From a virus, in IMG/VR virus record IMGVR_UViG_3300046530_000145, positions 1 through 26,435 of that record: 26,435 nt of DNA; one strand, 5' to 3'. Below the pieces are notes generated by a model. The model ran no database searches. It worked only from the letters and a program-made list of their open reading frames with translations, and had not been told where the DNA came from. A program made the translations under genes and the position numbers. Each line of letters begins with the position of its first letter. Within the stretch, counting starts at the first letter, position 1. Positions 2,189-24,812 of the stretch are shown here, piece by piece.

Positions 2189-4072
2189 GTGCGCTCGGCC
2201 ACCGAGATTCAGCACAAAGTAGAACTGCTGACCAAGGCATACCGTGAGCGGGACAACCGCTGGCGTGACGTCCGGTCCGTGCGCAAAGGCCGCCTCGAAG
2301 ACGTCTTCCCTGGCGTGAAGAGCGAAACGTTCCCCAAACCCATCATCGGCAACTTCATCAACCAGGTGGCCCGCGACCTCACCGAGGTGATCGCCCCGTT
2401 GCCCGCTTTCAACTGTGCTTCCTCCACCATGACCTCGGACCGGGCCCGCACGTTTGCCGACAAGCGGACGAAGATCGTCTCCCACTACATGGAGAACTCC
2501 GAAGTCGACGTCCAGATGTACACCGCGGTGGACCAGTACCTCACCTACGGGATGATGGTCGCCCTGCTGGAACCGGACTTCGACGAGCGGATGCCCAGAA
2601 TCCAGTTCGAGGACCCCTACGGCGGCTACCCCGAGTACGACCGGTGGAGCCGGCTCACCTCCTACACCAAGAAGTTCAAGAAACCGGGCTGGCTGCTGGC
2701 CGAGGAGTTCCCCGAATACGCCGCCAAGTTCCTCCGCGACCCCACCGGCCGCGACATCGGCGAACAAGACGTCGAGGTCATCCGCTACATCGACGTCGAC
2801 CAGTGGATGCTGCTGCTGCCCGGCTCACCTCAGCCCGGATTCAACGGCCAACGGGTCCCCACCGTGCTGGTCCGCACCCCGAACCTGCTCGATTCCATCC
2901 CGGTGGAGGTCACCCGCAAGCCGGGCCTGGACTACGACTCCCAGGTGGGCCAGTTCGACGAGGTGATCTGGATCCAGATCGCCCGCGACATCATGGCCAA
3001 GCTCAACGTGGAGGCGGTCTACAAGTCCGTGCAGGCACCGATCGCGCTGCCGCCGGATGTGCAGGACTTCGCCCTCGGCGCGGACGCGGTGATCCGCACC
3101 GCGAACCCGGAGAAGATCCGCCGCATCCCCATCGACCTCCCGCAGGGGGCGATGGCCGAGAGCCAGCTGTTGGACAAGGACATGCACGACGCGGCCCGCT
3201 ACCCCGCCGGCCGCTCCGGGAACCCGGAAGCCTCCGTCATCACGGGCAGAGGCATCCAGGCGCTGATGGGCGGGTTCGACACCCAGATCAAGGCAGCGCA
3301 GACGAACTTCACCCGCACCTACAAGCGCATCGTCGCCCGCTGCTTCGAGATGGACGAGAAGCTGTGGCCCAATGTGGACAAGGAGATCCGCGGTCAGGTC
3401 AACGGCGCCGCGTTCAAGATGACCTACCGGCCGTCGAAGGACATCGACGGTGACCACACCTGCGATGTGAGCTATGGATTCATGGCCGGTCTCGACCCGA
3501 ACCGCGCCCTGGTCATGATGTTGCAACTTCGTGGCGACAAGGAGATCTCCCGCGACACCGTGCAGCGGTCCATGCCGTTCGGTATAGACGTCGGCGACGA
3601 GCAGCGCAAGATCGACATCGAAGAGCTGAGGGATGCGATCAAGCAGGGGATCTACCAGTACGCCAGCACCATCCCGCAGATGGCGCAGATGGGTGCTGAC
3701 CCCGGCGAGGCGCTCGGCAAACTCGCCGGGATGATCTCGGCCATCGAGAAGGGCCGCACCATCGAGGACGCCATCCTCAAACTGTTCCCACCGCCCGAGC
3801 CCAAGCCCGAAGGCGAAGCACCCACCGAAGAGGCAGCGGCGGCCAACCCGCTGGAAGCTCTCCTCGGCGGTGCCGCAGCCGGCGGTGGAGGCGCACCACC
3901 GGAGCTTGGTGGCGGTGGCGGTGGTGGAGGCGGACCGTTCTCCGAGGTCGCCCCCGGTCAGGCCCAGATGGGCCCCGGCGGCCGGCCGGATCTGCAGCAG
4001 ATGCTCGCCGGGCTCTCCTCCTCCGGGAAGCCCCAGCTCAGTGCGTCGGTCATGCGTCGCATGCCGGCCTAA
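2189..4072 (+). CDS. Portal protein
   Basis: This 627-aa protein is the probable dodecameric portal, through which DNA enters and leaves the head and to which the tail attaches. The call rests on position directly after terminase, on length, and on a portal-like N-terminal region rich in charged helices (YRERDNRWRDVRSVRKGR), followed by an α/β core with paired acidic and aromatic patches. Residues ~355-395 (GRGIQALMGGFDTQIKAAQ region) resemble the long stem helix of portals. The C-terminal ~75 residues are low-complexity, Pro/Glu/Ala-rich, with nine consecutive glycines at 574-582. Start GTG 2189 has AGGAGGG at 2178-2184 overlapping the terminase stop. It is unlikely to be anything but portal in this context. 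Confidence 0.88.
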   Translation: MRSATEIQHKVELLTKAYRERDNRWRDVRSVRKGRLEDVFPGVKSETFPKPIIGNFINQVARDLTEVIAPLPAFNCASSTMTSDRARTFADKRTKIVSHYMENSEVDVQMYTAVDQYLTYGMMVALLEPDFDERMPRIQFEDPYGGYPEYDRWSRLTSYTKKFKKPGWLLAEEFPEYAAKFLRDPTGRDIGEQDVEVIRYIDVDQWMLLLPGSPQPGFNGQRVPTVLVRTPNLLDSIPVEVTRKPGLDYDSQVGQFDEVIWIQIARDIMAKLNVEAVYKSVQAPIALPPDVQDFALGADAVIRTANPEKIRRIPIDLPQGAMAESQLLDKDMHDAARYPAGRSGNPEASVITGRGIQALMGGFDTQIKAAQTNFTRTYKRIVARCFEMDEKLWPNVDKEIRGQVNGAAFKMTYRPSKDIDGDHTCDVSYGFMAGLDPNRALVMMLQLRGDKEISRDTVQRSMPFGIDVGDEQRKIDIEELRDAIKQGIYQYASTIPQMAQMGADPGEALGKLAGMISAIEKGRTIEDAILKLFPPPEPKPEGEAPTEEAAAANPLEALLGGAAAGGGGAPPELGGGGGGGGGPFSEVAPGQAQMGPGGRPDLQQMLAGLSSSGKPQLSASVMRRMPA

Positions 4073-5095: not shown

Positions 5096-8000
5096 GTGAG
5101 CTTCTGGGGTGCTGTCAAAGGATTCGGCCGAGACCTCGGTAAGGCGTGGACCGACTGGTACGACCAGGACGCCAAGCCCAATATTGGTCTCGCCTACGAC
5201 ATGGCCCTGGTCGCCACCTCCGGGTTCGAGCAGTCCGCGAAGGACAAGGTTGCTTCGGACTGGAAGAAGATCAAGGAGAGGGAGCAAGATAGAGGTTTCC
5301 TCGGGTCGGTTATAGGCCCCGGTGGGATAGCTCCGGCCGCACCAGTGCTCCAGAACCTCGGCACGGTCACCGAAGTACCGGGGGTTGCCGGGGTCACGCG
5401 GGCCCTCGACACGCCCCGCGAGTGGGCCGGCCGTGCGATGACCAGTGCCACCCTGGTGATGGGACCCGGCGGGCTCATGAACTTGCCCTTCGGTATGCCC
5501 GGCGATCCTCTCGACGCCGACGACTGGCACAAGGCGTGGAACACGTCCCGGCACATGTCACCCGGCCAGTCGATGATTGCCTCCATCGGCGCGGCGAACG
5601 ACTCCAAAGACGGCAGTATCTCGATGGATGACGTCATCGACTACAACAAGGAGCAAGGCGACGACCCCACCAAACAGAGCGGCTGGTACCGCTACACCAG
5701 CGGTGCTCTGGACTTTGGGGCCAACTTTCTCGACCCGTCCTTCGGAGCCGGCAAGCTCGCCAAGGCCGGCAAGCTCAAGTACCTCACCATGCCCCTCAAG
5801 GAACACAAACTGGAGGAAGGGCGGTACCTGGACTCCAATCGACTCCAGAAAGTTCTCGACCTGTCGAGGACCGTCAAGTCTTCAAACGAGCTGTACCGCA
5901 AGGCGTTCAGCGAGTCGACGTTCGGCGGCTCGCAGGCCAACGTCCTCTACCGCCTGCGCCACGACGAAGACGCGCAACGCCTCGCCATCCGTGGGTTCCT
6001 CGGTGACGAGTCCGCGATGCTGCGTCTCAAGGAGTACGACCCTGGCGCGGCCGACAAGATCCTGGACGCGAAGACCCGCGAGGATTGGGCGGACCTCAAG
6101 AGCCGGGAAGACCTCGCTCCCGACCATCCGCGGACTCTGAAGGCGGAGGAACGCGAACGGCTCAACGTGTTCGATGCCCAGCGGGACCAGGCGGCCCGTG
6201 ACGCCTACCTGGATCCGGACACCTTGACGCTTCTTCGGACCACACTCGTCGGCCAGGCTGCTCCGCGGGTTGGCAAGGTCGCGTCCGCGCGGTACGCGAT
6301 CCAGCAGAAGAACCCCTACGACCGGCCCATCTCCTTCCGGCTGCTGCATGCAGCGTCCACCGACGCGCGCATCATCACCCACGTCAACGTTCACGAAGAA
6401 GAAGGCCACATCGCCATCCGCCGGTACCTCGACCGCACGACGCTCGACGCCGACGTGCGGAACGCGTTCCTCGACCAGTACATGGCCGCTCCCTCGCCGG
6501 AGATCAAAGCTCGCATCGCCGGTGAAATGGAAGACACAGTCATCAAGAAGCTGGCCGACGACAACGGGATCGGGGAGGACCAGTACAAGCAGATCCTCGC
6601 CGCAGCCCAGCGCGGCCGAGCAGCCGCGCGCTATAAGCATGTGACCACTGCCCAGAAGTTCGTCTCCGAGCAGGGCGCAGAGGAGATGCGGAAGGCGGTC
6701 GCCGAACACGGCGACGTCAGCGTCAGCTCCTTTGTGGACGATGAGGACAACGTCGTCATGACCGCGCAACGGCTGCTGACATCGCAGAGCGCGGACATCG
6801 TGCCGCTTGCTGACATCGACCACATGAAGCGGGTGTTCAACAGGCACGCGTCGAAGTTCCAGAGCGTCGCGGCAGGCGGCTTGGCAGACAAGTACCTCTG
6901 GGACGTGATGGATGACGTCATCGGTGTGTGGAAGGTGTCGACCCTTCTTCGCGGCGGGTGGCCCGTCCGCCAGCTCTCGGACGAGACGGCGCGGCAGGCG
7001 TTCCTGCTTGGTGGGTTCAAGACCATGACGTATGGGGCGCGGGGGGTCGCCAATGCCGGACGCAACATGTGGGATCGCGGACGGGCGGGTATCGGCTACA
7101 TGCGCGCTCGCAACTCTGGAGAAGAGACCGCGCAGCTGGATAGCATTGTTCGCCCGTCCCACGCCACGGTGCAGGCTAACGCCAAGCTTGGCCTCGCCGG
7201 GGAAACGGCCCCGGTCGAACTCGGTGTCGAGAAGTTCCGCTCGATGGAAGAGGCGTATGCCAACGGGAAGCTGACCACCGACGCCTACATCAAGAGCCTG
7301 GAGAACCTAGCCGACGAAGGCATCCTCCCGAAGGCTGAAGCCGGATTCCTCGCCGCTCGCAAGGATCTCGGTGAGGTCAAGTTCCGCAAGAAGCTGATGG
7401 ACTACTCGCTCAGCAAGATCGGGTACGACCGCTACACGAACGGCCCGTGGCAGACGGAGGTTCTGGACCAGGCCCTCCAACGACGTATCGCTGTGAACCC
7501 GTTCACCGGAGACATCGATGACCTAGACCTGGCGAAGAAGCAGACACCCGCGGCGTCCAAGGTGATCTCCCGCGGGGACCACGGTCAATTCGACGAAGAC
7601 AATCTGTACGACTTCATCTCCGAACACCGGGACCTCATGGCGTTCCGGGGTACCACGTTCGGCATCGTCCCTGACGCCTCCGGTGGGCTTCGCCTGGAGG
7701 TCTACGTCCCAGACGACATCCGCCGGTCGAAGAGTCTCCGTGCCTCGATGGGCATCGACTTCAAAGCCCAGAAGCGCACCCAGTCGACACAGTCCTTCAA
7801 GGTGAAAGCCGAGGGTTCCAAAGAGGTCTACGAGATCGAAGGCGCACTCATCGACGGGGTGTGGCAGAAGAACGTGGGCACCAACGGTTACGAAGGTGGT
7901 GGCACCGCGAATCTGGTCATCGGTGCGGTCAACACCAAGGTCGGGAGATCCGCCTCGAAGACGGCGTTCACCGAGATCAGAGCAGCCGATGACATGGTGT

Positions 8001-10195
8001 CCTACAAACCGGCGTGGGAACGGGCAGCCAATCACCAGCTCGGCAACGACGTCGTCGCACGTCGGATCCTGGTTGGTGAGACCGACGACAAGATCATCGC
8101 GTTCCTCGAATCCGACGCAGCCAAAGGTATACGTCGGGACCATCCCTTCTTCGCAAGCAACCCCGGCGCGTGGGTTACCTCGATCCGTGCTTACGTCGAT
8201 CACTACATCCCGGACCTCACACTCCAGAACGGGAAGAACCTCCGCGTCGAAGCGCTCGCCGGTCGGGCCAAGGCCGATGACTTCATCGAAGCGATGGGTG
8301 ACGTGAAGGTGAGTTTGCCGGACATCCACGGCGAGAAGATCGACCATGCGCTCGGCATGGGTGGTGCCCTGAGTGAGATCAACAAGGGTGTCGACTACCT
8401 GATGACGTTGCTGGGGACCCTGCCGTCCGACGTTGCGTCTCGGAACCCGTTCTTCGACCGCTCCTACCGCAACCACATGCAGATGCTCATCGACGCCAGC
8501 GACATCAAGAAGGGTCGCATCGACCTGGCGGAGGTCGGCCGGCTTCAACACATCGCCCGTACCCATGCGCTGTCGGACCTCAAGAAGTGGATGTACAACT
8601 CGGACTCCGTCACGGTTCTGGCGAGCAAGGCCCGGTACATGTCGGCATTCATGGGTGCCACCCAGGACGCGATGTCAGCATGGTCGCGGATCATGATCAA
8701 CGACCCGTCAGTTGCGGTGACGTTGAACAAGTTGTGGAACGCCCCCGACAAGGCCGGGTTGATCGTCGATGCGAACGGCAACCAGCTCCAGATGGTCGAC
8801 GGTAAGGAAGCGTGGTTCGCCCCCACTCCGGACGAGCAGGGGAATCGCGTCCGTCTCAATCCGGACGAGGTCGAGGGCGTGGGTCAGGGCCGCTACATCA
8901 CGCTGAAGCTGCCGGATGCGGTCTCCCCGAAACTGTTCGGCAAGGAGTCCACGTTCCTGGCGGTGGCGAACAAGGACTCGTTCAACACGTTCCTCAACCT
9001 CAACCCCGGCGCAGGTCCACTACTGGCCGCGCCGGTCAACGAGATCATCATGAGGAACCCGACCCTGGTCAAGGACGAGCACAAGTTCGAGCAGTGGGTG
9101 ACGAAACAGATCCTTCCGTTCGGTCCGACTGCGGACTGGACGGAGACGATCATGTCGACGTCGATCAAGGAAGCCATCACGGCGTGGCGTGGTGAGGAGT
9201 CGGACAAGTTCAACTCCCGCACCTCGGCGATTATGCAGACGATGCTGTTCGAGTGGGCACGCGGTGGTAAGCAGGGAGACCCTCCGACCTGGGATCAGGC
9301 CGCGTCTCGGGCCGGCAACATCGGTGCCCTGCGGCTCGCCGGTGCTCTCGCGCTGCCCATCCAGTTCCAGTACAAGAGCCCGTACCAGCCCTACATCGAC
9401 GCCTACAACCTGATGAAGCGGCAGGACCCCCAGAACGCGGACATGAAGTTCTACGAGCGGTACGGCGAGGAGTACTTCTACCTGACGTCCCGGGTCACCA
9501 AGTCGCTGCCGGGACTGCCGACCTCGGTCAAGGGACAGGACTTCTTCGAGAAGAACCGGAAGCTGATCGAGAAGCACCCCGAGCTACTGGGGCTCATCAT
9601 GGGTGAAGAGGGAGCCGGAGAGTTCTCGAAGTCTGTGTACGAGTGGGGCAAGCGCAACAGCCTCACTCCTGGCGGAGACAAGCTGCGCCGACAACGAACT
9701 CCCGAGGAGGTCAAGACCGACACCGAGGAACGCCTGGGTTGGGTGAAGTACACGAAGTTCATGGACGCATATCGTGCGGATCTACTCGAACGTGGGTTGA
9801 AGAGCGACCGCCAGGAAGGCGCCGAGGACTTGCGGGAGACGAAGCGGGCGTTCCTCGACCAGAATGCCGCGGATGCTCCTGCGTGGCGGGACGCGTTCTA
9901 CACCGTCGATTCGCAGAAGTACCAGAAACGGATCGAGGGCATGGTCGAGATCGCCAAGGATGAGACGCTTCGCGGTCGTGACGACATCCAAGGACTCACC
10001 GACTACCTGTTGCTGCGTGAGCAGATGAAGCACCAGTTGACGGAACGTGCCGCGCAGGGCGGTGCGAAGACTTTGGAAGCACAGTCCAACGCGGATCTCG
10101 CGGACATGTGGGATGACGTGAAGATGGACCTCCTCGACCGGAACCTAGCGTTCAGCAACCTGTACGACCGTTGGCTCGTACACGACAAGTTCTAA
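5096..10195 (+). CDS. Giant internal/ejection virion protein
   Basis: This 1699-aa protein is the largest in the window and is unlike a tape measure: it has few hydrophobic transmembrane runs and no simple heptad or Trp/Phe-spaced repeats. It is mixed, mostly helical, with many charged residues. Visible landmarks are an EF-hand-like loop NDSKDGSISMDD at residues 168-179, and a region at 611-630 (VWKVSTLLRGGWPVRQLSDE) that resembles segments in other large phage virion proteins. Start GTG 5096 follows GAGG at 5087-5090. Placed between portal-associated genes and a block with two cell-wall hydrolases, it probably is an internal virion protein released with the DNA. No catalytic site was recognised. 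An alternative is a head-tail minor protein with fused domains. Confidence 0.7.
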   Translation: MSFWGAVKGFGRDLGKAWTDWYDQDAKPNIGLAYDMALVATSGFEQSAKDKVASDWKKIKEREQDRGFLGSVIGPGGIAPAAPVLQNLGTVTEVPGVAGVTRALDTPREWAGRAMTSATLVMGPGGLMNLPFGMPGDPLDADDWHKAWNTSRHMSPGQSMIASIGAANDSKDGSISMDDVIDYNKEQGDDPTKQSGWYRYTSGALDFGANFLDPSFGAGKLAKAGKLKYLTMPLKEHKLEEGRYLDSNRLQKVLDLSRTVKSSNELYRKAFSESTFGGSQANVLYRLRHDEDAQRLAIRGFLGDESAMLRLKEYDPGAADKILDAKTREDWADLKSREDLAPDHPRTLKAEERERLNVFDAQRDQAARDAYLDPDTLTLLRTTLVGQAAPRVGKVASARYAIQQKNPYDRPISFRLLHAASTDARIITHVNVHEEEGHIAIRRYLDRTTLDADVRNAFLDQYMAAPSPEIKARIAGEMEDTVIKKLADDNGIGEDQYKQILAAAQRGRAAARYKHVTTAQKFVSEQGAEEMRKAVAEHGDVSVSSFVDDEDNVVMTAQRLLTSQSADIVPLADIDHMKRVFNRHASKFQSVAAGGLADKYLWDVMDDVIGVWKVSTLLRGGWPVRQLSDETARQAFLLGGFKTMTYGARGVANAGRNMWDRGRAGIGYMRARNSGEETAQLDSIVRPSHATVQANAKLGLAGETAPVELGVEKFRSMEEAYANGKLTTDAYIKSLENLADEGILPKAEAGFLAARKDLGEVKFRKKLMDYSLSKIGYDRYTNGPWQTEVLDQALQRRIAVNPFTGDIDDLDLAKKQTPAASKVISRGDHGQFDEDNLYDFISEHRDLMAFRGTTFGIVPDASGGLRLEVYVPDDIRRSKSLRASMGIDFKAQKRTQSTQSFKVKAEGSKEVYEIEGALIDGVWQKNVGTNGYEGGGTANLVIGAVNTKVGRSASKTAFTEIRAADDMVSYKPAWERAANHQLGNDVVARRILVGETDDKIIAFLESDAAKGIRRDHPFFASNPGAWVTSIRAYVDHYIPDLTLQNGKNLRVEALAGRAKADDFIEAMGDVKVSLPDIHGEKIDHALGMGGALSEINKGVDYLMTLLGTLPSDVASRNPFFDRSYRNHMQMLIDASDIKKGRIDLAEVGRLQHIARTHALSDLKKWMYNSDSVTVLASKARYMSAFMGATQDAMSAWSRIMINDPSVAVTLNKLWNAPDKAGLIVDANGNQLQMVDGKEAWFAPTPDEQGNRVRLNPDEVEGVGQGRYITLKLPDAVSPKLFGKESTFLAVANKDSFNTFLNLNPGAGPLLAAPVNEIIMRNPTLVKDEHKFEQWVTKQILPFGPTADWTETIMSTSIKEAITAWRGEESDKFNSRTSAIMQTMLFEWARGGKQGDPPTWDQAASRAGNIGALRLAGALALPIQFQYKSPYQPYIDAYNLMKRQDPQNADMKFYERYGEEYFYLTSRVTKSLPGLPTSVKGQDFFEKNRKLIEKHPELLGLIMGEEGAGEFSKSVYEWGKRNSLTPGGDKLRRQRTPEEVKTDTEERLGWVKYTKFMDAYRADLLERGLKSDRQEGAEDLRETKRAFLDQNAADAPAWRDAFYTVDSQKYQKRIEGMVEIAKDETLRGRDDIQGLTDYLLLREQMKHQLTERAAQGGAKTLEAQSNADLADMWDDVKMDLLDRNLAFSNLYDRWLVHDKF

Positions 10196-10206
10196 AGGAC
10201 GGCGTC

Positions 10207-11547
10207 ATGGCTACGCATGACAGGCGCGAGAAGGAACAAGCCAAGAAGCGCGCCGCCAAGAAGGCTGCCCAGGATAAGCGCCGGCAGGTAGCGGGCACCT
10301 CACAGGGTTCACGTACTCGCGTCGTCGAGGGTGTTGATCTCACAGAGGAGCAGTACCGCTCCTACCAGGAACTGCGGCGCACGGATCCTGCGGCAGCCTC
10401 ACAGTATGTCGACACCGTCAAGGCTTACCCAGATCGACCCGACCAGGCCGAATCCGTCAAGGCCACTCTCAAGCTCAGTGCCAAGCAACGGGGAGAGACG
10501 AAGAAGAAGGAGCTCGAGGATCTCGAGTACGGCCGGCTGACCGAGTCGAGGAAGCAGTTCGAGCAACGTCTCTCTACGACGAAGGTCGAGCCCGTTGGAT
10601 CGGCAACGGCAGCTGAACGTGCAGCCAGCGAGACGTGGCCGACACTCGCGCCCTCGCAACGCACGAACAAACCGCAAGCGAGGTACGAAAAGGACAAGGG
10701 AAGCCAACCGGCGGGGAAGTTGATAGCGCCGAAGGGCGGTAGCGCTGTCGAGCAGTACCTCACCTCCAGGGGGAAGCCGTACGTTGGCCCGCTCAAGCCC
10801 ACCCTTGCCACCGGAGTGAGCATTACTGGTGACGAGAAGATCTGGCTCGGCGAAACTGGCGGAGTGTATGCCCCGTCGAGGGGTCATATGAATGACCCGG
10901 ATGCGCCCGGTGGGCGTCTTGCAGGTCCCGAGGCTACTCAGTACTCGACCATCAACCAGTACTACATCAAGCTTTGGGAGATGACCCCGTTGGAGCGCAT
11001 GGAGTTTCAGCGCGCTCAGGGTCTTCCACCGACCGGGGCTCTGGATCAGTCCACACAGGACGCCTGGAAGAACGTGTTGGTGCACGCCGCTCGGCTGACC
11101 GCAGCAGGGCAGAAGGTCACTCCAGAGTCGCTGTACGGGTTCAAGCTCGACTCGGACAAGACTGGCAAGCGTGGCGGTCCCGCCGGTCCCGGTGAAGCGG
11201 GCGGTGGCCCGAGAACTACTACCCAAGTGGCCCTGACCAACCGAGGCGAGGCCAAGAAACTGCTGAATGCGATCTTCCGCCAGAAGCTCGGGCGAGCGGT
11301 CACCGAGGACGAAGTGTCGATGTTCCAGGCTCAGCTCAACTCCAGCGAGAAGAAGCACCCGAAGACCAGCACTGGGGAGCTCAACGCCGCAGGTTCGCTG
11401 GAGACGCAGAATGTCAGCGGTGGTCTCGACGCCGAGCAGTTCACCGAGGACTACCTGATGGAAACGAAGGGCGGGGAGGCGAACGCCCGCATGGTGGGTG
11501 TCGACTACTTCGACGCGGCGCTAAAGGCCATCGGGGCGGCGGTCTAA
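10207..11547 (+). CDS. Virion protein with PG-binding-like segment
   Basis: A 446-aa protein, probably part of the virion. The first ~45 residues are very basic (REKEQAKKRAAKKAAQDKRR), followed by a charged, coiled-coil-prone stretch. Residues ~255-315 (MTPLERMEFQRAQGLPPTGALDQSTQDAW) resemble a peptidoglycan-binding fold, with the G-L-x-x-T-G-x-x-D-x-x-T-x-x-A-W pattern. Residues ~345-385 (NRGEAKKLLNAIFRQKLGR, then TEDEVSMFQAQLN) match a helical motif I associate with actinophage tail or ejection proteins. Start ATG 10207 has AAAGGAC at 10194-10200; the longer upstream frame overlaps the previous gene without a better site. It is immediately followed by the peptidase gene, consistent with a shared cell-wall-entry role. 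The exact function is unknown. Confidence 0.72.
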   Translation: MATHDRREKEQAKKRAAKKAAQDKRRQVAGTSQGSRTRVVEGVDLTEEQYRSYQELRRTDPAAASQYVDTVKAYPDRPDQAESVKATLKLSAKQRGETKKKELEDLEYGRLTESRKQFEQRLSTTKVEPVGSATAAERAASETWPTLAPSQRTNKPQARYEKDKGSQPAGKLIAPKGGSAVEQYLTSRGKPYVGPLKPTLATGVSITGDEKIWLGETGGVYAPSRGHMNDPDAPGGRLAGPEATQYSTINQYYIKLWEMTPLERMEFQRAQGLPPTGALDQSTQDAWKNVLVHAARLTAAGQKVTPESLYGFKLDSDKTGKRGGPAGPGEAGGGPRTTTQVALTNRGEAKKLLNAIFRQKLGRAVTEDEVSMFQAQLNSSEKKHPKTSTGELNAAGSLETQNVSGGLDAEQFTEDYLMETKGGEANARMVGVDYFDAALKAIGAAV

Positions 11548-12858
11548 ATGGCCAGCTCCGCTGAAGTCGTGGCGATGGCGAAGAAGTACCTCGGCATCCC
11601 TTACGTCTTCGGCGGCACTGATCCCAAGAAGGGGCTGGACTGCTCCAGCCTGGTCCAGCTCGTCTACAAGAACCTCGGCATGCAGCTCCCTCGGCTGGTC
11701 CGGGACCAGCGTAACCAGGGACGCGCCGTCAACGGCATCAAGAATGCCCAACCTGGTGATCTCATCGTTTTCGGAACCCAGCCCTCGAACTACCACATCG
11801 GCATCTACCTCGGTGGGAACAAGATGCTGCACGCCCCGCAGCCTGGGGAGAAGGTGAAGATCGGCAACGTGTACGAGACGCCGACGACGATCCGCCGGCT
11901 CATCGGCGACGGCGGTGCCGGGCAGGATCTCTCCGGCACGCCGGCCGCCGGCTCCGCCGGGGCGGCTGCGGAGAAGCCCATAGACATGAACACCCTGGCG
12001 TCGAACTACGGCTACAGCGTCGCGTTCTTCAAGCAGGACAAGAGCTTGTGGGATCTCATCAACCTGTCGGTAAAGAGCCAGTTCACCCCGCTGGAGTTCC
12101 AGGCTCAGCTCAAGAACACCTCGTGGTACAAGAAGCACAGCGAGTCCTACCGTCTGTGGTCCGCTCAGGAGCGGGTGGATCCGGCGTCCGCGCAGGCGAA
12201 ACTGCACCAGACGAAGGTTCGGTTGATCCAGATGGGCCAGCAGCTCGGCATCAACGTGGACCCGAAACGGTTGGCTGACATGGCATGGAGGGTCAACGCC
12301 TACGCCTGGAGCGATCAGGAGATCTCTGCGGCGATGGCCGGTGAGATGAAGTTCGACCCGAAGAAGGCCGGGAAGTACTACGGCGGGATGGCCGTCAACG
12401 ACGCGAAGATCAAAGAGCAGGCCGCTGCCTACGGCGTCACCGTCGATGACAAGACGGCATTCAATCTGATGAACCAGCTTGTCGGTCAGCAGACCACCGA
12501 AGAGGGCGTGACTGCCTGGATCCAGAAACTGGCGAAGTCGAAGTATCAGGGTCTGGCCGATGACATCGACGCGGGGATGACGGTCGCCGAGTACGCCGAC
12601 CCGTTCATCCAGGCCCAGGCCCGGTTGCTGGAGGTTGACCCGGCGGATGTGCATCTCGACGACAAGCACATCCAGACGGCCCTGCAGAACAAGGACCAGA
12701 AGACTGGCGCCTACGCGCCGAAGAACATGTTCGACTTCGAGAAGCAGGTCAAGTCCGACGCGCGGTGGACCAAGACGAAGAACGGTCGGGACGAGCTGAT
12801 GGAAGGCGCGCAGCGGGTCTTGGCTGATTGGGGTCTGTCCACGACCGGAGGTGGCTGA
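11548..12858 (+). CDS. NlpC/P60 peptidase, virion-associated
   Basis: A 436-aa two-part protein. Residues 1-120 are an NlpC/P60 cysteine-peptidase domain: AKKYLGIPYVFGGTDPKKG, catalytic Cys32 in LDCSSLVQLVY, His83 in NYHIGIYLGG and His95 as the third polar residue. Known members cut peptidoglycan stem peptides. A Gly/Ala linker (~121-146) leads to a ~285-residue C-terminal module (147-431) that is repeated almost intact in the next gene. There is no signal peptide. The position far from the holin/endolysin cassette and beside giant virion proteins suggests local wall digestion at DNA entry rather than lysis. ATG 11548 directly follows the previous stop; the stop overlaps the next start (TGATG). 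Confidence 0.88.
   Translation: MASSAEVVAMAKKYLGIPYVFGGTDPKKGLDCSSLVQLVYKNLGMQLPRLVRDQRNQGRAVNGIKNAQPGDLIVFGTQPSNYHIGIYLGGNKMLHAPQPGEKVKIGNVYETPTTIRRLIGDGGAGQDLSGTPAAGSAGAAAEKPIDMNTLASNYGYSVAFFKQDKSLWDLINLSVKSQFTPLEFQAQLKNTSWYKKHSESYRLWSAQERVDPASAQAKLHQTKVRLIQMGQQLGINVDPKRLADMAWRVNAYAWSDQEISAAMAGEMKFDPKKAGKYYGGMAVNDAKIKEQAAAYGVTVDDKTAFNLMNQLVGQQTTEEGVTAWIQKLAKSKYQGLADDIDAGMTVAEYADPFIQAQARLLEVDPADVHLDDKHIQTALQNKDQKTGAYAPKNMFDFEKQVKSDARWTKTKNGRDELMEGAQRVLADWGLSTTGGG
11986..12840 (+). repeat. Duplicated C-terminal module, copy 1
   Basis: Codons 147-431 of the peptidase gene. Matching blocks shared with copy 2 in the same order include YGYS-AFFKQD, WYKKHSES, HQTKVRLIQMGQQ, DPKRLADMAWRVNAY, DDIDAGMTV and LLEVDPADVHLDD. 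Similarity extends to the nucleotide level, with long near-identical stretches around 12206-12245, implying a relatively recent duplication or gene conversion. Confidence 0.9.
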
Positions 12859-14114
12859 TGGCGTCGTTGGAGAGCATCCTCCGTCAGGCCGGGTTCACCG
12901 GCCAGGGACTCCAGACCGCGATGGCTGTGGCGATGGCGGAGTCTGGCGGTAACGCCAGGGCGTACAACCCGAAGGGCCGGGACCTGTCCTACGGCCTGTT
13001 CCAGATCAACATGCTCGGGGGCATGGGTCCGGAGCGCCGCAAGAAGTACGGCCTGGCGTCGAATGAAGCCCTGTTCGACCCGGTCACCAACGCCCGTGTC
13101 GCCTATGCGATGTCCAACGGTGGAAAGAATTGGAAGCCGTGGACCACCTACACCTCCGGGAAGTACCGCACGTATCTGGGGAAAGGCGCCGAAGTCGCTG
13201 GTGGCGCAGCCGCCACTGGTACTGCCGCTGGTGGCACCGGGGAGCAGCCCCTGTCGATGGATGCGCTGGCCGCCCGGTACGGCTATTCGCTGGCGTTTTT
13301 CAAGCAGGACCCCACCCTGTGGAAGCTCATCAACCAGGCCGTCAAAGACCAGATGACCCCGGATGAGTTTGGTGCCCAGCTCAAGAACACGCAGTGGTAC
13401 AAGAAGCACAGTGAGTCGGACCGACAGTGGCGGGCCTTGGAGCGTGTCGATCCGGAGACAGCACGGGCCCGGATGCACCAGACGAAGGTTCGGCTGATCC
13501 AGATGGGTCAGCAGATGGGTGTGCACGTCGACCCGAAGAGGCTCGCCGATATGGCGTGGCGGGTGAACGCCTACGGGTGGGATGAGAACCAGGTCGCGTC
13601 CGCGTTCCAGGCGGAGATGAAGTTCGATCCCAAGAAGGTCGACCAGTACCGTGGGATGGTGGCGGTGAACGCCGCCTCCATCAAAGAGCAAGCCGCAGAT
13701 TACGGCGTGAAGATCGACGACAAGACTGCGTTCACGCTGACGACGCAGCTGATCGGCCGGTCCACCACCGAAGAAGGCATCACCGAGTACATCAAGAAGC
13801 AGGCGAAGATCAAGTACGCGGGGCTGTCGGATGATATCGACGCGGGGATGACCGTCAAGGACTACGCCTCACCGTTCGTTCAGACCCAGGCGAAGCTCCT
13901 CGAAGTGGATCCGGCTGATGTTCACCTCGACGATCCGCGTATCGCGGCGGCACTCCAGCACCGCGACCCGAAGACGAACAAGCCTGCGGCCATGAGCCTC
14001 ACTGACTTCGAGAAGTCCGTGAAGTCCGACGGCCGGTGGATGAAGACGAAGAACGCCCGCGACGAGCTGATGGATGGCACCCGTCAGATCCTCACCGATT
14101 GGGGGCTCGGATGA
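12858..14114 (+). CDS. Lysozyme-like transglycosylase, virion-associated
   Basis: A 418-aa two-part protein. Residues 1-108 form a lytic-transglycosylase/lysozyme-like (SLT) domain: the likely catalytic Glu28 lies in MAESGGNARAYN, followed by the family's YGLFQIN motif at 45-51 and a NARVAYAM helix. Such domains cleave the glycan strand. A Gly/Ala/Thr linker (~110-132) joins it to a C-terminal module (134-417) that closely matches that of the preceding peptidase. Start ATG 12858 has GGAGG at 12847-12851; the in-frame ATG at 12828 lies inside the previous gene and is rejected. It overlaps both neighbours by a few bases, so all three are co-translated. It likely acts with the peptidase during entry. 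Confidence 0.88.
   Translation: MASLESILRQAGFTGQGLQTAMAVAMAESGGNARAYNPKGRDLSYGLFQINMLGGMGPERRKKYGLASNEALFDPVTNARVAYAMSNGGKNWKPWTTYTSGKYRTYLGKGAEVAGGAAATGTAAGGTGEQPLSMDALAARYGYSLAFFKQDPTLWKLINQAVKDQMTPDEFGAQLKNTQWYKKHSESDRQWRALERVDPETARARMHQTKVRLIQMGQQMGVHVDPKRLADMAWRVNAYGWDENQVASAFQAEMKFDPKKVDQYRGMVAVNAASIKEQAADYGVKIDDKTAFTLTTQLIGRSTTEEGITEYIKKQAKIKYAGLSDDIDAGMTVKDYASPFVQTQAKLLEVDPADVHLDDPRIAAALQHRDPKTNKPAAMSLTDFEKSVKSDGRWMKTKNARDELMDGTRQILTDWGLG
13257..14108 (+). repeat. Duplicated C-terminal module, copy 2
   Basis: Codons 134-417 of the transglycosylase gene, directly repeating copy 1 in the same orientation about 1.27 kb downstream. The module is helical, contains no recognisable catalytic site and is probably the virion-anchoring part common to both hydrolases. 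Confidence 0.9.
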
Positions 14115-14953
14115 CCCAACCCGCCGGCCTGAGTGCCGACCAGCAGGACGCCTTCCAGTTCATCCTCCAGAACATGCTCAAGCCTTACGGCCTGGAGTCT
14201 CTCGGTCCGGTGCTGAAGAACTTCATCATCTCCGGGTACACCGGGGACAACCTGTCCTACATGTTGCAGGACACCCCGGAGTACCAGAAGCGGTTCGCCG
14301 GCAACGAGGTCCGCGGGAAGGCCGGTCTGCCGAAGCTTCCGCCGGGGGAGTACATCGCCACCGAGCGGTCGTACCGGCAGATCATGGAATCGGCGGGGAT
14401 GCCGATCGGGTTCTACGACTCCCCCGAAGACTTCGCCTCGTGGATCGGCCAGGACGTCGCACCGCAGGAGGTCAAGTCGCGGGTGGACCTGGCGGTGGAT
14501 GCCACCAATAGGATGGATGACGACTACAAGAAGGCGATGCAGGACTACTACGGCATCGACCAGAACCACCTCGCCGCCTACTTTCTCGATCAGAGCCGAG
14601 CCGAGCCGTACCTCCAGAAGCAGGCGAAGGCGATGAAGGTCGGTCAGGCCGCGAACCGCAACCAGCTCGGCCTGTACAAGGAAGAGGCGGAGCGGATCGC
14701 CACCTCCACGCAGGCGGAGAACGCGGACGCGCTCATGGGCCAGGCGGCGTCCATCTGGCAGGCCGGGGAGAACCTGAAGGACATCTACGGCACCGACTAC
14801 AACAAGACCGACGTGCTCGAAGAGACCTTCTTCGGCACCGCCTCGGCCAAGCGGAAGCGGCAGAAGCTCGGCGAGATGGAGAAGGCGACGTTCTCCCAGT
14901 CCGGCGGTGCCGGCAAGGGTGCACTGGAAGCAGCCACTCCGGGTTCTTACTAG
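14111..14953 (+). CDS. Conserved virion-block hypothetical protein
   Basis: A 280-aa mostly helical protein of unknown function. I chose ATG 14111, which overlaps the previous stop (ATGA); an in-frame ATG at 14036 lies deep inside the preceding gene. Residues ~45-120 (LQDTPEYQKRFAGNE, then GEYIATERSYRQIMESAGMP, then GFYDSPEDFASWIGQDV) resemble a family I associate with actinophages. The LxxTxxYxKR element recalls the LKNTxWYKKHSES segment in both preceding hydrolases, so this may be a distant, enzyme-less relative of their shared module. It is the last gene before the 212-base non-coding gap and probably belongs to the ejection/entry block. Confidence 0.72.
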   Translation: MTQPAGLSADQQDAFQFILQNMLKPYGLESLGPVLKNFIISGYTGDNLSYMLQDTPEYQKRFAGNEVRGKAGLPKLPPGEYIATERSYRQIMESAGMPIGFYDSPEDFASWIGQDVAPQEVKSRVDLAVDATNRMDDDYKKAMQDYYGIDQNHLAAYFLDQSRAEPYLQKQAKAMKVGQAANRNQLGLYKEEAERIATSTQAENADALMGQAASIWQAGENLKDIYGTDYNKTDVLEETFFGTASAKRKRQKLGEMEKATFSQSGGAGKGALEAATPGSY

Positions 14954-14959
14954 ATCGCG

Positions 14960-14995
14960 CTAAACCGCACTAAACCGCGATAACCTTTATATACT
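14960..14995 (+). promoter_or_regulatory. Candidate promoter with tandem decamer
   Basis: An unusually A/T-rich patch follows the 280-aa gene. CTAAACCGC occurs twice with a 10-base period (14960-14968 and 14970-14978), followed by TATACT at 14990-14995, a good -10 match. No TTGACA-like box sits 16-18 bases upstream; the decamers occupy that position and might bind an activator. It would drive scaffold and capsid genes. Transcription from here is inferred. Confidence 0.45.
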
Positions 14996-15002
14996 TTCCG
15001 GT

Positions 15003-15044
15003 TGCGTGACTGGCCGGCACCGGGGTTCGAGCCCCCGGCACGCG
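15003..15044 (+). other. tRNA-like T-arm/acceptor fold
   Basis: CCGGGG (15020-15025), loop TTCGAGC (15026-15032) and CCCCGG (15033-15038) reproduce a tRNA T-arm with its 7-nt TTCGA loop. TGCGTG (15003-15008) can pair with CACGCG (15039-15044), whose strand directly continues the T-stem. This gives a 12-bp coaxial stack like a tRNA acceptor/T helix. Only 11 bases replace the D and anticodon arms, so it is not a functional tRNA. It may be a minihelix, a degraded tRNA, an att remnant or simply a hairpin. Confidence 0.4.
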
Positions 15045-15095
15045 CTCCTCACCCAGACCGACCGGCCCTGGGGAGTGAACCTAGTCCGGTAGTGG

Positions 15096-15134
15096 GAGCC
15101 GAGACCCGCTTCCCCTGGCGGGTCGTCGTGGCTC
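15096..15134 (+). terminator. Two-tier hairpin before scaffold gene
   Basis: GACCCGC (15103-15109) pairs with GCGGGTC (15118-15124) around an 8-nt loop. Outer GAGCC (15096-15100) can pair with GGCTC (15130-15134). No T-run follows, so it is either a weak terminator/attenuator limiting read-through, or an RNA element in the 5' leader of the scaffold/capsid message. Confidence 0.4.
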
Positions 15135-15165
15135 ACGTCCCTTCGATCGACAAGGGAGACGCCGC

Positions 15166-15734: not shown

Positions 15735-16685
15735 GTGCCTGATCAGTACACTGATGCCGGCGGCGGCGCTTCTCTTGGTGTAAACCTCGTTCAGGCCGCC
15801 ATGGATCGGTACCTCGAATTCAACCTGCGTGCGATGCCGCTCTACCGCCACCTGGCGGACAAGCGTCCCGTACAGCAGGCAATGCCGGGCAGCTCCGTAG
15901 TTTTCAACATCTACCAGGACCTGCCGAAGGCAACCACACCGCTCACCGAGACCGTCGATCCTGACGCCATCGGTGTGCCGTCCACCCAGACCGTGTCTGT
16001 GACTCTCATCGAATACGGTGAGGCGCAGATCAAGACGAGAAGGCTCCAGCTCTTCGCCCTGTCCGACGTCGATCCGGCTATCGCCAACATCGTGTCGTAC
16101 AACCTGGGTGACTCGCTGGATGACATCGTCAGAGATGTGCTCCGTCAGGGCACCAACGTCGCCCGCGAAGCGGGCGGGGTGATGACCTTCAACACCGGCT
16201 CCGCCGCGAACGTCACCGGGACAGATACGTTCAAGTCCCGTGACGGACGTGCGGTGGTAGCTAAGCTGCGGGGAAACAAGGCGGTCCCCCGGACGGGGAA
16301 CCTGTATGCCGCGTTCCTTCACCCGGACGTGGCCTACGATCTTCGCTCCGAAACCGGTGCGGCTGCATGGCGGGACCCCCATGTGCAGTCGGCTCCCGGT
16401 AATATCTGGGATGCGACGATCGGCACGTACGAAGGTGCCATCTATACCGAGACCCCGCGTGCGTACTTCGCCAACGACGGGGGCACCAGCGCGAAGGTGC
16501 ATCGCACGATCTTCTGCGGTCAGCAGGCTCTGGCCGAGGCTGTCGCAGAAGAGCCGCATGTGATCATCGGCCCGATCACCGACCGACTGAATCGGTTCAG
16601 GCCGATTGGTTGGTATGGCGTTCTAGGTTGGGCTCGGTTCCGCGAGGCGAGCTTGTTCCGCGTGGAATCCACCTCGACCCTGTAA
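15735..16685 (+). CDS. Major capsid protein, N4 gp56-like
   Basis: A 316-aa protein that forms the icosahedral shell (HK97 fold expected). The order of motifs resembles the N4 gp56 capsid family: AMPGSSVVFNIYQDLPKATTPLTETVDPDAI, here residues ~55-85, then TQTVSVTLIEYGEAQIKT, a spine-like helix ALSDVDPAIANIVSYNLGDSLDDIV, and a C-terminal β-rich half with YAAFLHPDVAYDLR and ending GVLGWARF-EASLFRVES. There is no N-terminal propeptide or protease cleavage signal that I recognise. Start GTG 15735 has AGGAAGG at 15721-15727, an excellent ribosome site matching high expression. A 13-bp hairpin follows the stop, fitting an abundant message. Confidence 0.9.
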   Translation: MPDQYTDAGGGASLGVNLVQAAMDRYLEFNLRAMPLYRHLADKRPVQQAMPGSSVVFNIYQDLPKATTPLTETVDPDAIGVPSTQTVSVTLIEYGEAQIKTRRLQLFALSDVDPAIANIVSYNLGDSLDDIVRDVLRQGTNVAREAGGVMTFNTGSAANVTGTDTFKSRDGRAVVAKLRGNKAVPRTGNLYAAFLHPDVAYDLRSETGAAAWRDPHVQSAPGNIWDATIGTYEGAIYTETPRAYFANDGGTSAKVHRTIFCGQQALAEAVAEEPHVIIGPITDRLNRFRPIGWYGVLGWARFREASLFRVESTSTL

Positions 16686-21767: not shown

Positions 21768-22120
21768 GCGAGAAGACAGCAGGCCGCCACGACCTGCAGA
21801 TGCGCGACAACGAGACGTTCGTCCTACACCTGACCTATAAGGACCCGAACAGTCTTCCCGTCGACCTCACCGGTTACGCCGTCCGGATGCAGGTCCGGGA
21901 CAAGGCCGGCGGCACTGTACTCCTGGACTCTGACGATTCTGGTACCGCGGTGATCACCGATCCTCTCGAAGGGAAGATCGACGTCACATTCCCCAGGTCG
22001 GACATGCTCGCGGTAACGGCACGTCTGGGCGTGTACGACCTGGCTCTGATCTCTCCCACCGCGCAGGTCGACGTTCTCATCGAGGGCACCGTGGCATTCA
22101 TCAGGGGCGTGACGGTATGA
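21764..22120 (+). CDS. BppU-like N-terminal domain protein
   Basis: A 118-aa protein of a widespread phage fold: an immunoglobulin-like domain with [35 protein letters not shown] and [24 protein letters not shown], like the N-terminal part of baseplate upper protein BppU. In other phages it links fibres to the tail. The start is GTG 21764 overlapping the preceding stop (GTGA), with TGAGGA at 21751-21756; earlier in-frame ATGs lie inside the upstream gene. The stop overlaps the collagen-fibre start (ATGA), so this domain probably docks that fibre. Here the domain is a separate gene rather than fused to the fibre. Confidence 0.8.
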
Positions 22121-23325
22121 CCACCACTCCGAACCAGGTTGTCGTCGATCCCAAGACGGTGGCGGTCATCGAGGTTGCCACTATCGGCCCGAAGGGAATC
22201 GAGGGGGACGCCGGTCCCACCGGCCCACCGGGACCTATCGGGCTCGACGGCCCCCCAGGACCCCAGGGAATTATCGGTGCCACCGGTTTGTCGGGGCCCA
22301 CGGGTGCCCAAGGGCAGATGGGTGACGTCGGTCCGGAAGGACCGATCGGGTTGACCGGTCCCACCGGGCCGCCTGGCTTGACGGGCGACACAGGTGACAC
22401 CGGATTGCAAGGGATCCCCGGTTCCCAGGGTCCCGAAGGACCCATCGGCCCGATGGGACCGCGCGGGTTCAAGGGCGATACGGGTGATCCCGGTGGACCT
22501 GTAGGACCGATGGGACCGGAAGGTCCACAGGGTGTGCCAGGTTTGCCGGGCATCCAGGGTTTGGAGGGGCCCACCGGCCCACAAGGTGTGAAGGGGGATA
22601 CGGGGAGTACGGGTGCCACTGGTACTACTGGTGCTACTGGCTCGCAGGGTCCCAAGGGCGATAAGGGCGACCCCGGAACCAACGGAACCAACGGTGCCGC
22701 CGGTGCCACGGGTCCACAGGGACCGGTCGGTCTCACTGGAGCCGATGGTCCACAAGGAATTCCCGGCGCTTCTGGTGGAACTGTCGGACCGGCTGGTGGC
22801 TCACCCTTCACACTCGTCGCTGCACAAGCGAACCTTCCGGCCGCGACGGCGGCAGCAGGGCCTGGCTATCACGTCGCCAACACCAAGACATCGTGGGTTT
22901 CCGATGGAGCGGTGTGGAAGCTCGTTCAGGGCGATACGGGTGTCCGCGATATCTCGTCGACGCTGCGAACCGCCAACTGGAAGCTCTCCTCGACGGCTGG
23001 TTACTTCCGGATTCGGCGTGTTCTCAACACGGTGTGGCTCTCGGGTCGGTTGCAGTACAACGGCCCAGGCGTGATCATGGCGTCAGATGTGGAGATCTAC
23101 ACCGTGACGGCCGGGTTCATCCCGGCGAACGCATACGTCCCACTCGGCGTATGCGTTCGTTACGCGACGAATCTGGGCGTGATCGACAACTACTCCTCAC
23201 CGTCCATTGTCAGCTGCAACTTTCATGGGACGGCTGGTAGCTGGGTGGTCGACCAAAGCTTCTTCTTCCAGGTGTCATGGATTACGAACGATGCCTGGCC
23301 GAACAACCCACTTCCTGGCGTGTAA
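22117..23325 (+). CDS. Collagen-like tail fibre
   Basis: A 402-aa fibre. Residues 1-23 form a short β-prone head. Residues 24-219 are a collagen-like Gly-X-Y shaft of 65 triplets, interrupted once by a single extra glycine after triplet 34 (GDP-G-GPV). Residues ~220-402 form a β-rich C-terminal domain ([13 protein letters not shown], then a [19 protein letters not shown] strand, then a Cys-containing tail half), probably the trimerising receptor-binding tip. Proline and threonine/aspartate are common at the Y and X positions, as in bacterial collagens that are stable without hydroxyproline. It is translationally coupled to the BppU-like gene by an ATGA overlap. Confidence 0.9.
22186..22773 (+). 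repeat. Gly-X-Y collagen repeat tract
   Basis: Nine-base periodic GGN-rich DNA encoding 65 Gly-X-Y triplets with one register slip near residue 126. The tract is repetitive at codon level but not made of identical units, so it is less prone to slippage than a true microsatellite. Its complement also reads as Pro/Gly triplets, creating a spurious reverse-strand frame. Confidence 0.9.
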
Positions 23326-23566: not shown

Positions 23567-24015
23567 TGTCTTGGAACCTTCCGTTCCCGGATCCGGAGAA
23601 GTATCCCGACCTGTTTGGAGACGACGACATGCCTACTCTGTCTGAACCGCCGGTGTGGCCGTTGCCCGCCGGACACTTCTTCGGACCTGCCTCCCTCGAA
23701 GAGAGCAACGCCGCCTGTCACTCTGGCACGAAGGAGTGGGTGGACAACAACAAGCTCCAGTTGTGGCAGCGGCACTTCTTCGAGGTGTGGGACCGGGAGC
23801 TGGACGTGACCGGGAAGTTCGACGCCGGCACCCAGGATGCCGTGGAGAAGGTACAGGAAGCCGCCGGCTGGGAGCCCAGCGGGAAGCTGGACGAGAACAC
23901 CTGGAAGGTGGTGTGGACCGCGAAGCCCAAGGAGAAGAAGGAAGTGAAGGAGAAGGAGCCGGCGAAGAAGAAGCCCACCACCCGCTCGGCGTTCAAGAAG
24001 TCCATGGGTGGCTGA
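23566..24015 (+). CDS. Peptidoglycan-binding domain protein
   Basis: A 149-aa protein with one peptidoglycan-binding (PGB_1-like) domain at ~60-115: LQLWQRHFFEVWDRELDVTGKFDAGTQDAVEKVQ, then GKLDENTWKVVW. The C-terminal ~30 residues are a Lys/Glu/Pro-rich tail. No catalytic domain or signal peptide is present. Start ATG 23566 lies in the previous stop overlap; an internal in-frame ATG at 23629 (MPTLSEPPVWPLPAG), with GGAG at 23617-23620, is a credible alternative giving 128 aa. It directly precedes the endolysin, so it might assist wall binding during lysis or be a virion wall-binding protein. Confidence 0.75.
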   Translation: MSWNLPFPDPEKYPDLFGDDDMPTLSEPPVWPLPAGHFFGPASLEESNAACHSGTKEWVDNNKLQLWQRHFFEVWDRELDVTGKFDAGTQDAVEKVQEAAGWEPSGKLDENTWKVVWTAKPKEKKEVKEKEPAKKKPTTRSAFKKSMGG

Positions 24016-24020
24016 GTTCG

Positions 24021-24812
24021 GTGGCCGTGTCCTACAAGCTTGCCAAGCCGGTCCAGAACAACAAGGACCAGTTCAAGAAGTACTTCCCGAAGGCCCCCTT
24101 CCTGGGTGATATAGGTGATGCCCGGCACCTCAAGGGCAGCGGTGATCATACGCCCTGGGCGTCGGACGTGATCAACGGTAAGAGGCACCAGCGGGGCACC
24201 GTCTACGCCATGGACCTGGGGAATGGCTCGGGCTTCGACTCGGTGAAGTTCTCTCAGTGGCTACTGCAGCAGGTGAAGGCCGGGAAGTACCCGGAGGTGA
24301 AGTACTTCCTGTCCAACTACAAACTGTGGGATCGCCGGTATAGCTGGCGTCAGCAGAAGGGGTCGGATGGACCGGGCCATGTTCATCTCAGTTTCATGCC
24401 GGGGCAGGAGAACACTTCGAGCCAGATCATGGCCGACTACTACCGCTACCTCCATCCTCCTGCGAAGCCGCCGGCCAAGGGGCCGCCGACGCTGGCGGCG
24501 GCACCGGTACGTCCAGCGCCACCGGTCTACCCGATCAAGGCCCGGACGCTGAAGGACGGGAAGGTTCTCGGCTCGCCAATTCCGAACGCTCGGGTGGTGC
24601 CGGCGAAGAAGGCTCCGGTGCTGTCGATCGGTGCCGGTGACGACAAGATGGGCGGCTGGGTGACCTACGCCGAGCACAAGCTCGGCGTCCCGGCAAACGG
24701 ATACTACGGGCCAGAGATGGTCAAAGCGGTCAAAGCGCTACAGAAGGCCCGTGGTCTACCCCAGACCGGACAAATCAACGAGGCCACATGGCGCAGCCTC
24801 GGACAGAAGTAA
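24021..24812 (+). CDS. Endolysin, M15-like zinc peptidase + PG binding
   Basis: A 263-aa lysis enzyme. The N-terminal domain (~25-145) has a Zn-peptidase arrangement like D-Ala-D-Ala/L-Ala-D-Glu peptidases of the M15/VanY type: His43 in SGDHTPW, Asp65 in GTVYAMDLG and His120/His122 in GPGHVHLSF. It would cut stem peptides. A Pro/Lys/Ala-rich linker (~146-205) leads to a PGB_1-like domain at ~210-262 (YAEHKLGVPANGYYGPEMVKAVKALQ, ending INEATWRSL). The start is GTG 24021 just after the previous stop; GTG 24027 is also possible. There is no signal peptide, so it needs the adjacent holin to reach the wall. Confidence 0.87.
   Translation: MAVSYKLAKPVQNNKDQFKKYFPKAPFLGDIGDARHLKGSGDHTPWASDVINGKRHQRGTVYAMDLGNGSGFDSVKFSQWLLQQVKAGKYPEVKYFLSNYKLWDRRYSWRQQKGSDGPGHVHLSFMPGQENTSSQIMADYYRYLHPPAKPPAKGPPTLAAAPVRPAPPVYPIKARTLKDGKVLGSPIPNARVVPAKKAPVLSIGAGDDKMGGWVTYAEHKLGVPANGYYGPEMVKAVKALQKARGLPQTGQINEATWRSLGQK

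Follow-up and report, generated by a model that had tools for sequence, protein, structure and literature searches.

A duplicated helical module bearing predicted peptidase and lysozyme-like heads in the structural operon of a virus related to Streptomyces podoviruses

In phage T7, an N-terminal lytic transglycosylase on the virion protein gp16 opens the peptidoglycan for DNA entry, and among podoviral ejection proteins this head is found either on gp16 or on the gp15 homologue (PMC8954989). The tail-knob enzyme gp13 of the podovirus phi29, which has lysozyme-like and endopeptidase activity, serves in penetration of the wall of a Gram-positive host (PMC9863714). The Beephvirinae, podoviruses of Streptomyces that are short-tailed by electron microscopy (PMC11536984, PMC9753666), encode pairs of 'peptidase' and 'glycosylase' genes annotated as minor tail proteins (PHROG 6654), including Manuel gp12/gp13, Immanuel3 gp11/gp12 and FlowerPower gp11/gp12. 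In the Abafar paper, where a short-tailed virion is shown, a search of passages for mass spectrometry found none. Entry lysozymes are also encoded by the actinobacterial tectiviruses Forthebois, WheeHeim and RickRoss, whilst in tectivirus Toil a lysozyme-like protein is accompanied by an NlpC-like virion protein.

The sequence analysed here is a 26-kb virus record, the whole 26,435 nucleotides of which are referred to as the window, and the isolates closest to it at the protein level are Beephvirinae, podoviruses of Streptomyces (31-35% identical to the window proteins). A conserved block was found in the window and its relatives, in the order large protein, g10171, one or two module genes, g14111, scaffold and major capsid protein (MCP). 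The features of the block in the window are as follows.

5096..10195 (+): large protein at the start of the block, 1699 aa, phrog_10618, with synteny in relatives
10171..11547 (+): g10171, conserved gene upstream of the pair, 458 aa, recognised by synteny
11548..12858 (+): gene 1, 436 aa, composed of NlpC/P60 head, linker and module copy 1; phrog_6654 matched across residues 4-431 (E 1.7e-67)
11593..11883 (+): NlpC/P60 head of gene 1, residues 16-112, with C32, H83 and H95, PF00877
11971..12837 (+): carrier module copy 1, residues 142-430 of gene 1, a nucleotide repeat at an offset of 1271
12858..14114 (+): gene 2, SLT_3 lysozyme-like head, linker and module copy 2, 418 aa, ATG at 12858
12882..13148 (+): SLT_3 lysozyme-like head of gene 2, residues 9-97, catalytic Glu E28 assigned by family, PF18896
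13242..14108 (+): carrier module copy 2, residues 129-417 of gene 2, predicted all-helical
14111..14953 (+): g14111, the next gene after the pair, 280 aa, phrog_8424, with an ATGA overlap with gene 2
15735..16685 (+): MCP, PF13252 and phrog_1357, the same PHROG as N4 gp56

The genes are translationally coupled, with a TAA stop running directly into an ATG at 11545-11550 and a TGATG junction at the start of gene 2. Both hydrolase domains are thus encoded within a virion structural operon whose scaffold and MCP block is conserved across relatives. No transmembrane-like segments were found in the block. The 1699-aa protein is possibly an internal or ejection protein, and g10171 weakly resembles PG_binding_1 (E 3.6e-4, below the Pfam cut-off). 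In N4 the order gp50-gp51-gp52-gp53-gp54-gp55-MCP is likewise headed by a very large protein near the scaffold and MCP. The ejection-protein blocks of the Schitoviridae N4 (gp50-52) and DEV (gp71-73; PMC10925440) resemble that of the window in gene layout.

The pair occupies the same operon slot as that of the Beephvirinae, with an NlpC head first, a lysozyme-like head second and a homologous module, but the second head of the Beephvirinae isolates is another SLT type and not SLT_3. The T7 enzyme offers a likeness of presumed function, whereas the window differs in having a duplicated carrier with putatively complementary enzymes. Both catalytic domains of phi29 gp13 lie on a single chain, whereas those of the window are divided between two paralogous genes.

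Both heads score well above their Pfam cut-offs. That of gene 1 matches NLPC_P60 (PF00877) with an E-value of 1.3e-24 (86.6 bits against a cut-off of 23), and that of gene 2 matches SLT_3 (PF18896) with an E-value of 1.1e-23 (83.9 bits against 27) and, also above cut-off, SLT (PF01464, E 4.7e-7). Residues C32 and H83 were invariant in the 130 NlpC heads compared and the third position, H95, is present in the window; E28 of the SLT_3 head is likewise present, and is invariant in 103 heads. An earlier note on this DNA had proposed that adjacent genes carry unrelated N-terminal enzymes, an NlpC/P60 peptidase and a lysozyme-like one, and the matches and intact catalytic residues bear this out. The SLT_3 head (12882-13148) is also 60-62% identical to the lysozyme-like protein of the Streptomyces tectiviruses Forthebois, WheeHeim and RickRoss, the highest-identity phage matches. 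Tectiviruses belong to another realm (Varidnaviria), lack the carrier module and have the SLT_3 head alone in common with the window; judged by sequence, this putative wall-cutting head is common to viruses of two realms.

The C-terminal module of about 285 residues claimed for both genes in the earlier note was recovered by BLASTP as an ungapped alignment of 289 residues (142-430 against 129-417) with 192 identities (66%; E 6e-145). At the DNA level the second copy follows the first at a fixed offset of 1271 bases, and the two are about 70% identical overall, with values of 71% (11954-12253 against 13225-13524) and 78% (12733-12836 against 14004-14107) in two of the segments compared. Ahead of residue 142, similarity drops to background over some 60 bases or less, in a Gly/Ala linker, and it does so again at the stop codon. 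The similarity had been described as close, which holds for the identities given above but not in the sense of a young repeat, as a dS of 1.11 (Nei-Gojobori) indicates that the duplication was not recent. With dN at 0.26, the dN/dS ratio of about 0.23 indicates purifying selection on both copies.

An AlphaFold2 model of module copy 2 is an all-helical fold of 287 residues (mean pLDDT 94.4). Neither sequence nor fold searches gave a credible PDB match for the module, no Pfam wall-binding domain was found in it, and the fold search matched only relatives among viral models, including FlowerPower gp12. The model of g14111 is also all-helical, and its fold search likewise gave no credible PDB match. 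A profile-profile comparison of g14111 with the module scored 42 (Prob 73), against 16.4 or less for shuffled and reversed controls; g14111 is therefore a probable, much older relative of the carrier by sequence profile, and duplication of the carrier may have happened before. Comparison of N4 gp50-gp59 with all families of the block, including the module against gp50-gp55, gave no signal, in a search where the MCP positive control was itself barely seen.

Relatives were surveyed with profile searches over fetched loci, anchored on the MCP. As the survey was seeded by heads and MCP and not dereplicated, and headless loci lie partly at contig ends, the following counts are not frequencies: 53 loci carried an NlpC and other-SLT pair, 24 an NlpC and SLT_3 pair, 12 a single SLT_3-headed module, three an NlpC gene with a headless second copy, and 55 a single module without a recognised head. 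Among the latter, 31 had 70 or fewer residues before the module, several of these at contig ends, and 24 had a longer N-terminus without a catalytic-domain match. Relatives with a single-copy module and relatives with other heads, both of which the earlier note had suggested looking for, were therefore found. Among the 12 SLT_3-headed singles, the module of L024 bears M23 and SLT_3 heads, and among the 24 longer N-termini that of L261 bears a PG-binding head. Copy 1 of the module used alone as a scan query returned no matches. Neither the carrier module nor the paired arrangement was found described in the literature.

Headless single-copy modules occupied the same slot in L094, L096-L101, L104, L106 and others. 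No NlpC or SLT domain was detected anywhere in the 38-45 kb records of the module-bearing, headless L094, L096, L099 and L103, while headless L118 has an SLT match elsewhere in its record. Such modules, in some cases in genomes without an NlpC or SLT match, suggest a structural carrier able to go bare rather than an obligate part of an enzyme. There were also two instances of a split-head arrangement, in which a freestanding NlpC protein lies directly upstream of the module gene: in L253 (2261-2851) before a headless module (2860-3726), and in L261 (2327-2863) before the module with the PG-binding head (2859-3947). The second pair gene of L236 (3775-5077) is broken into two overlapping ORFs, which suggests a frameshift in the genome or its assembly.

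The close kin of the window are the environmental records L092 and L093, with MCPs 91-92% identical. The six modules of these three viruses form one clade (100/100), the sister of which is the headless L094/L100 module (99/81), whereas in the Beephvirinae-type phages the first-gene and second-gene modules form ancient, separate clades. Forcing the window-clade modules into the Beephvirinae first-copy and second-copy clades gave a tree about 160 lnL worse, and orthology with the Beephvirinae pair, first with first and second with second, was rejected (AU p 3.3e-5 and 3.2e-58). The earlier note had held that ancient, separately evolving module families in all relatives would speak against its reading; such families exist as the two old Beephvirinae-type clades, but do not extend to the window clade. 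It had also supposed that one module was duplicated and refitted with a second head. One duplicated module with two unrelated heads is indeed what was found, but the closest module outside the clade has no head, so that both may have been added, as opposed to one being original and the other a refit. Within the clade, first copy groups with first and second with second between the window and L093 (AU p 0.016 against the window copies as sisters), whereas in L092 the two copies pair together. A tree with all second copies joined was rejected (AU p 0.026) and one with all first copies joined was not (p 0.062), which places the duplication, or the last homogenisation, near the split from L092.

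Whether these trees record separate duplications was weighed against a single ancient NlpC and SLT pair inherited by all paired phages, with modules re-unified by gene conversion in the window clade (and in L108) and one copy and the heads lost from headless phages, a history that we regard as unlikely. It would explain why gene order and the order of head types are the same in every pair; if origins were independent, NlpC first and lysozyme-like second throughout would be a coincidence, which counts against the explanation preferred here. The grouping of the two L092 modules is what conversion in L092 would give, with copy identity kept in L093 and the window. A single origin was not rejected for the module-linked NlpC heads (AU p 0.34, in a weak test on a reduced set) or for the SLT_3 heads (AU p 0.07, in a similarly weak test on head domains alone), and in the MCP and g14111 tree, where the window clade stands beside the headless L094/L100/L107, parsimony is tied, two gains fitting equally as well as one gain and one loss. 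Yet a single ancient pair needs conversion of the whole module, with no trace left of first or second identity, at least twice. Moreover, the closest kin of the window-clade modules is a single-copy module without a head, not either Beephvirinae copy, and the best tree places the window-clade and L108/L258 NlpC heads outside the 42 linked heads of Beephvirinae type (branch 100/95). Independent duplication is hence favoured over homogenisation, clearly but not decisively, and the pair appears to have been built by phages more than once.

Two further explanations concern what the genes do. Lysis enzymes acting at exit, with the module as a wall-binding domain, would suit the domain make-up: NlpC and lysozyme-like domains are also found in endolysins, and the endolysins of Gram-positive phages usually have C-terminal wall-binding domains. 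We consider this very improbable, as both genes belong to the structural operon, ahead of the scaffold and capsid genes, a headless module fills the same slot in phages without an NlpC or SLT match, the 287-residue helical fold resembles no Pfam wall-binding domain, and a separate PG_binding_1 protein is encoded at 23655-24812. Marginally less credible still is an active head-shuffling device, working by recombination between the modules as direct repeats, which the earlier note had raised. Head exchange did occur at the level of the family: on the second-gene module tree the head type (SLT_3, another SLT type or none) changed 11 times, at least six of these on well-supported branches, and both freestanding heads and headless modules exist. 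The present repeats, however, are unlikely to drive it because the longest identical stretch in register is 20 bp, in copies only some 70% identical, and each copy has retained its identity since the window and L093 diverged. Among the surveyed loci, no phage was seen with head types exchanged between first and second positions.

The explanation we find reasonably probable is that, in this lineage, a carrier was duplicated and its copies received heads for use at entry, a peptidase on one and a glycan cutter on the other, separately from the similar pairs elsewhere. The module of about 289 residues would be the carrier, a helical structural protein of a short-tailed virion, and its common sequence and fold suggest that both products are incorporated by way of it. 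Both proteins would be exposed or ejected at infection, where the NlpC/P60 peptidase is expected to cut peptide stems and the lysozyme-like head glycan strands; by analogy with T7 gp16 and phi29 gp13, their combined cutting may breach a thick wall so that the DNA can enter. Historically, a single and perhaps headless module would have been duplicated, and both heads acquired, in the common ancestor of the window, L092 and L093, an event separate from the older Beephvirinae-type duplication and from that of L108/L258. Database names such as 'minor tail protein', 'peptidase' and 'glycosylase' for family members rest on annotation, and we infer virion incorporation, activity and common docking of the predicted hydrolases from sequence and analogy.

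A bolder proposal, to which we lean less than half-way, is that the module is an undescribed virion socket on which heads have been mounted repeatedly. Three or more independent duplications (window clade, Beephvirinae-type and L108/L258) would have turned the socket into an NlpC/lysozyme pair, forming a hetero-oligomeric assembly that presents both activities, with bare sockets in phages that need no cutters.

Further downstream, the 385-aa protein at 23655-24812 carries a C-terminal PG_binding_1 domain (40.4 bits against a cut-off of 23) and lies behind a collagen-like tail protein (22117-23325); it could be an endolysin or a further wall-binding virion protein.

A separate observation concerns the gap at 14954-15165, the site at which the Beephvirinae carry 14-22 tRNA genes. 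ARAGORN found no tRNA in the window, and the gap holds only a tRNA-like non-coding element of about 42 nt (15002-15047, +), which also occurs in L092 (near 7281), L093 (near 7285) and L287-L294. Its shape is that of the top half of a tRNA, with a 5-bp acceptor-like stem, a connector of about 11 nt replacing the D and anticodon arms, and a 6-bp T-stem with a TTCGANY loop. Across the window, L092, L093 and eight isolates of actinophages, at least 35 copies were found. The full set of 11 pairs forms in 33 of the 35, with many two-sided (compensatory) changes, and in none of five shuffles. The nine copies in Leviticus are all intergenic and on the coding strand. The element matched 123 phage records, with no annotation at the site among the matches listed, and its best Rfam match, mascRNA-menRNA, was below cut-off. 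No paper on it was found in the literature. Possibly, it serves as RNase P punctuation of operons.

Modular virion lysins are already known, but a duplicated carrier bearing two complementary cutters as neighbouring proteins differs from these. Since the module occurs in relatives either bare or joined to other heads, this two-cutter tool was apparently built more than once, and the bare-carrier relatives together with the repeated exchange of heads amount to a natural experiment in fitting entry machinery to wall type, the boundary between linker and module being a suggested natural exchange point. The survey suggests that the module represents an unplaced family of virion proteins that many environmental podoviruses encode. 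Should pairs in this one order have arisen repeatedly, function probably requires that stem peptides and glycan be cut from matched positions.
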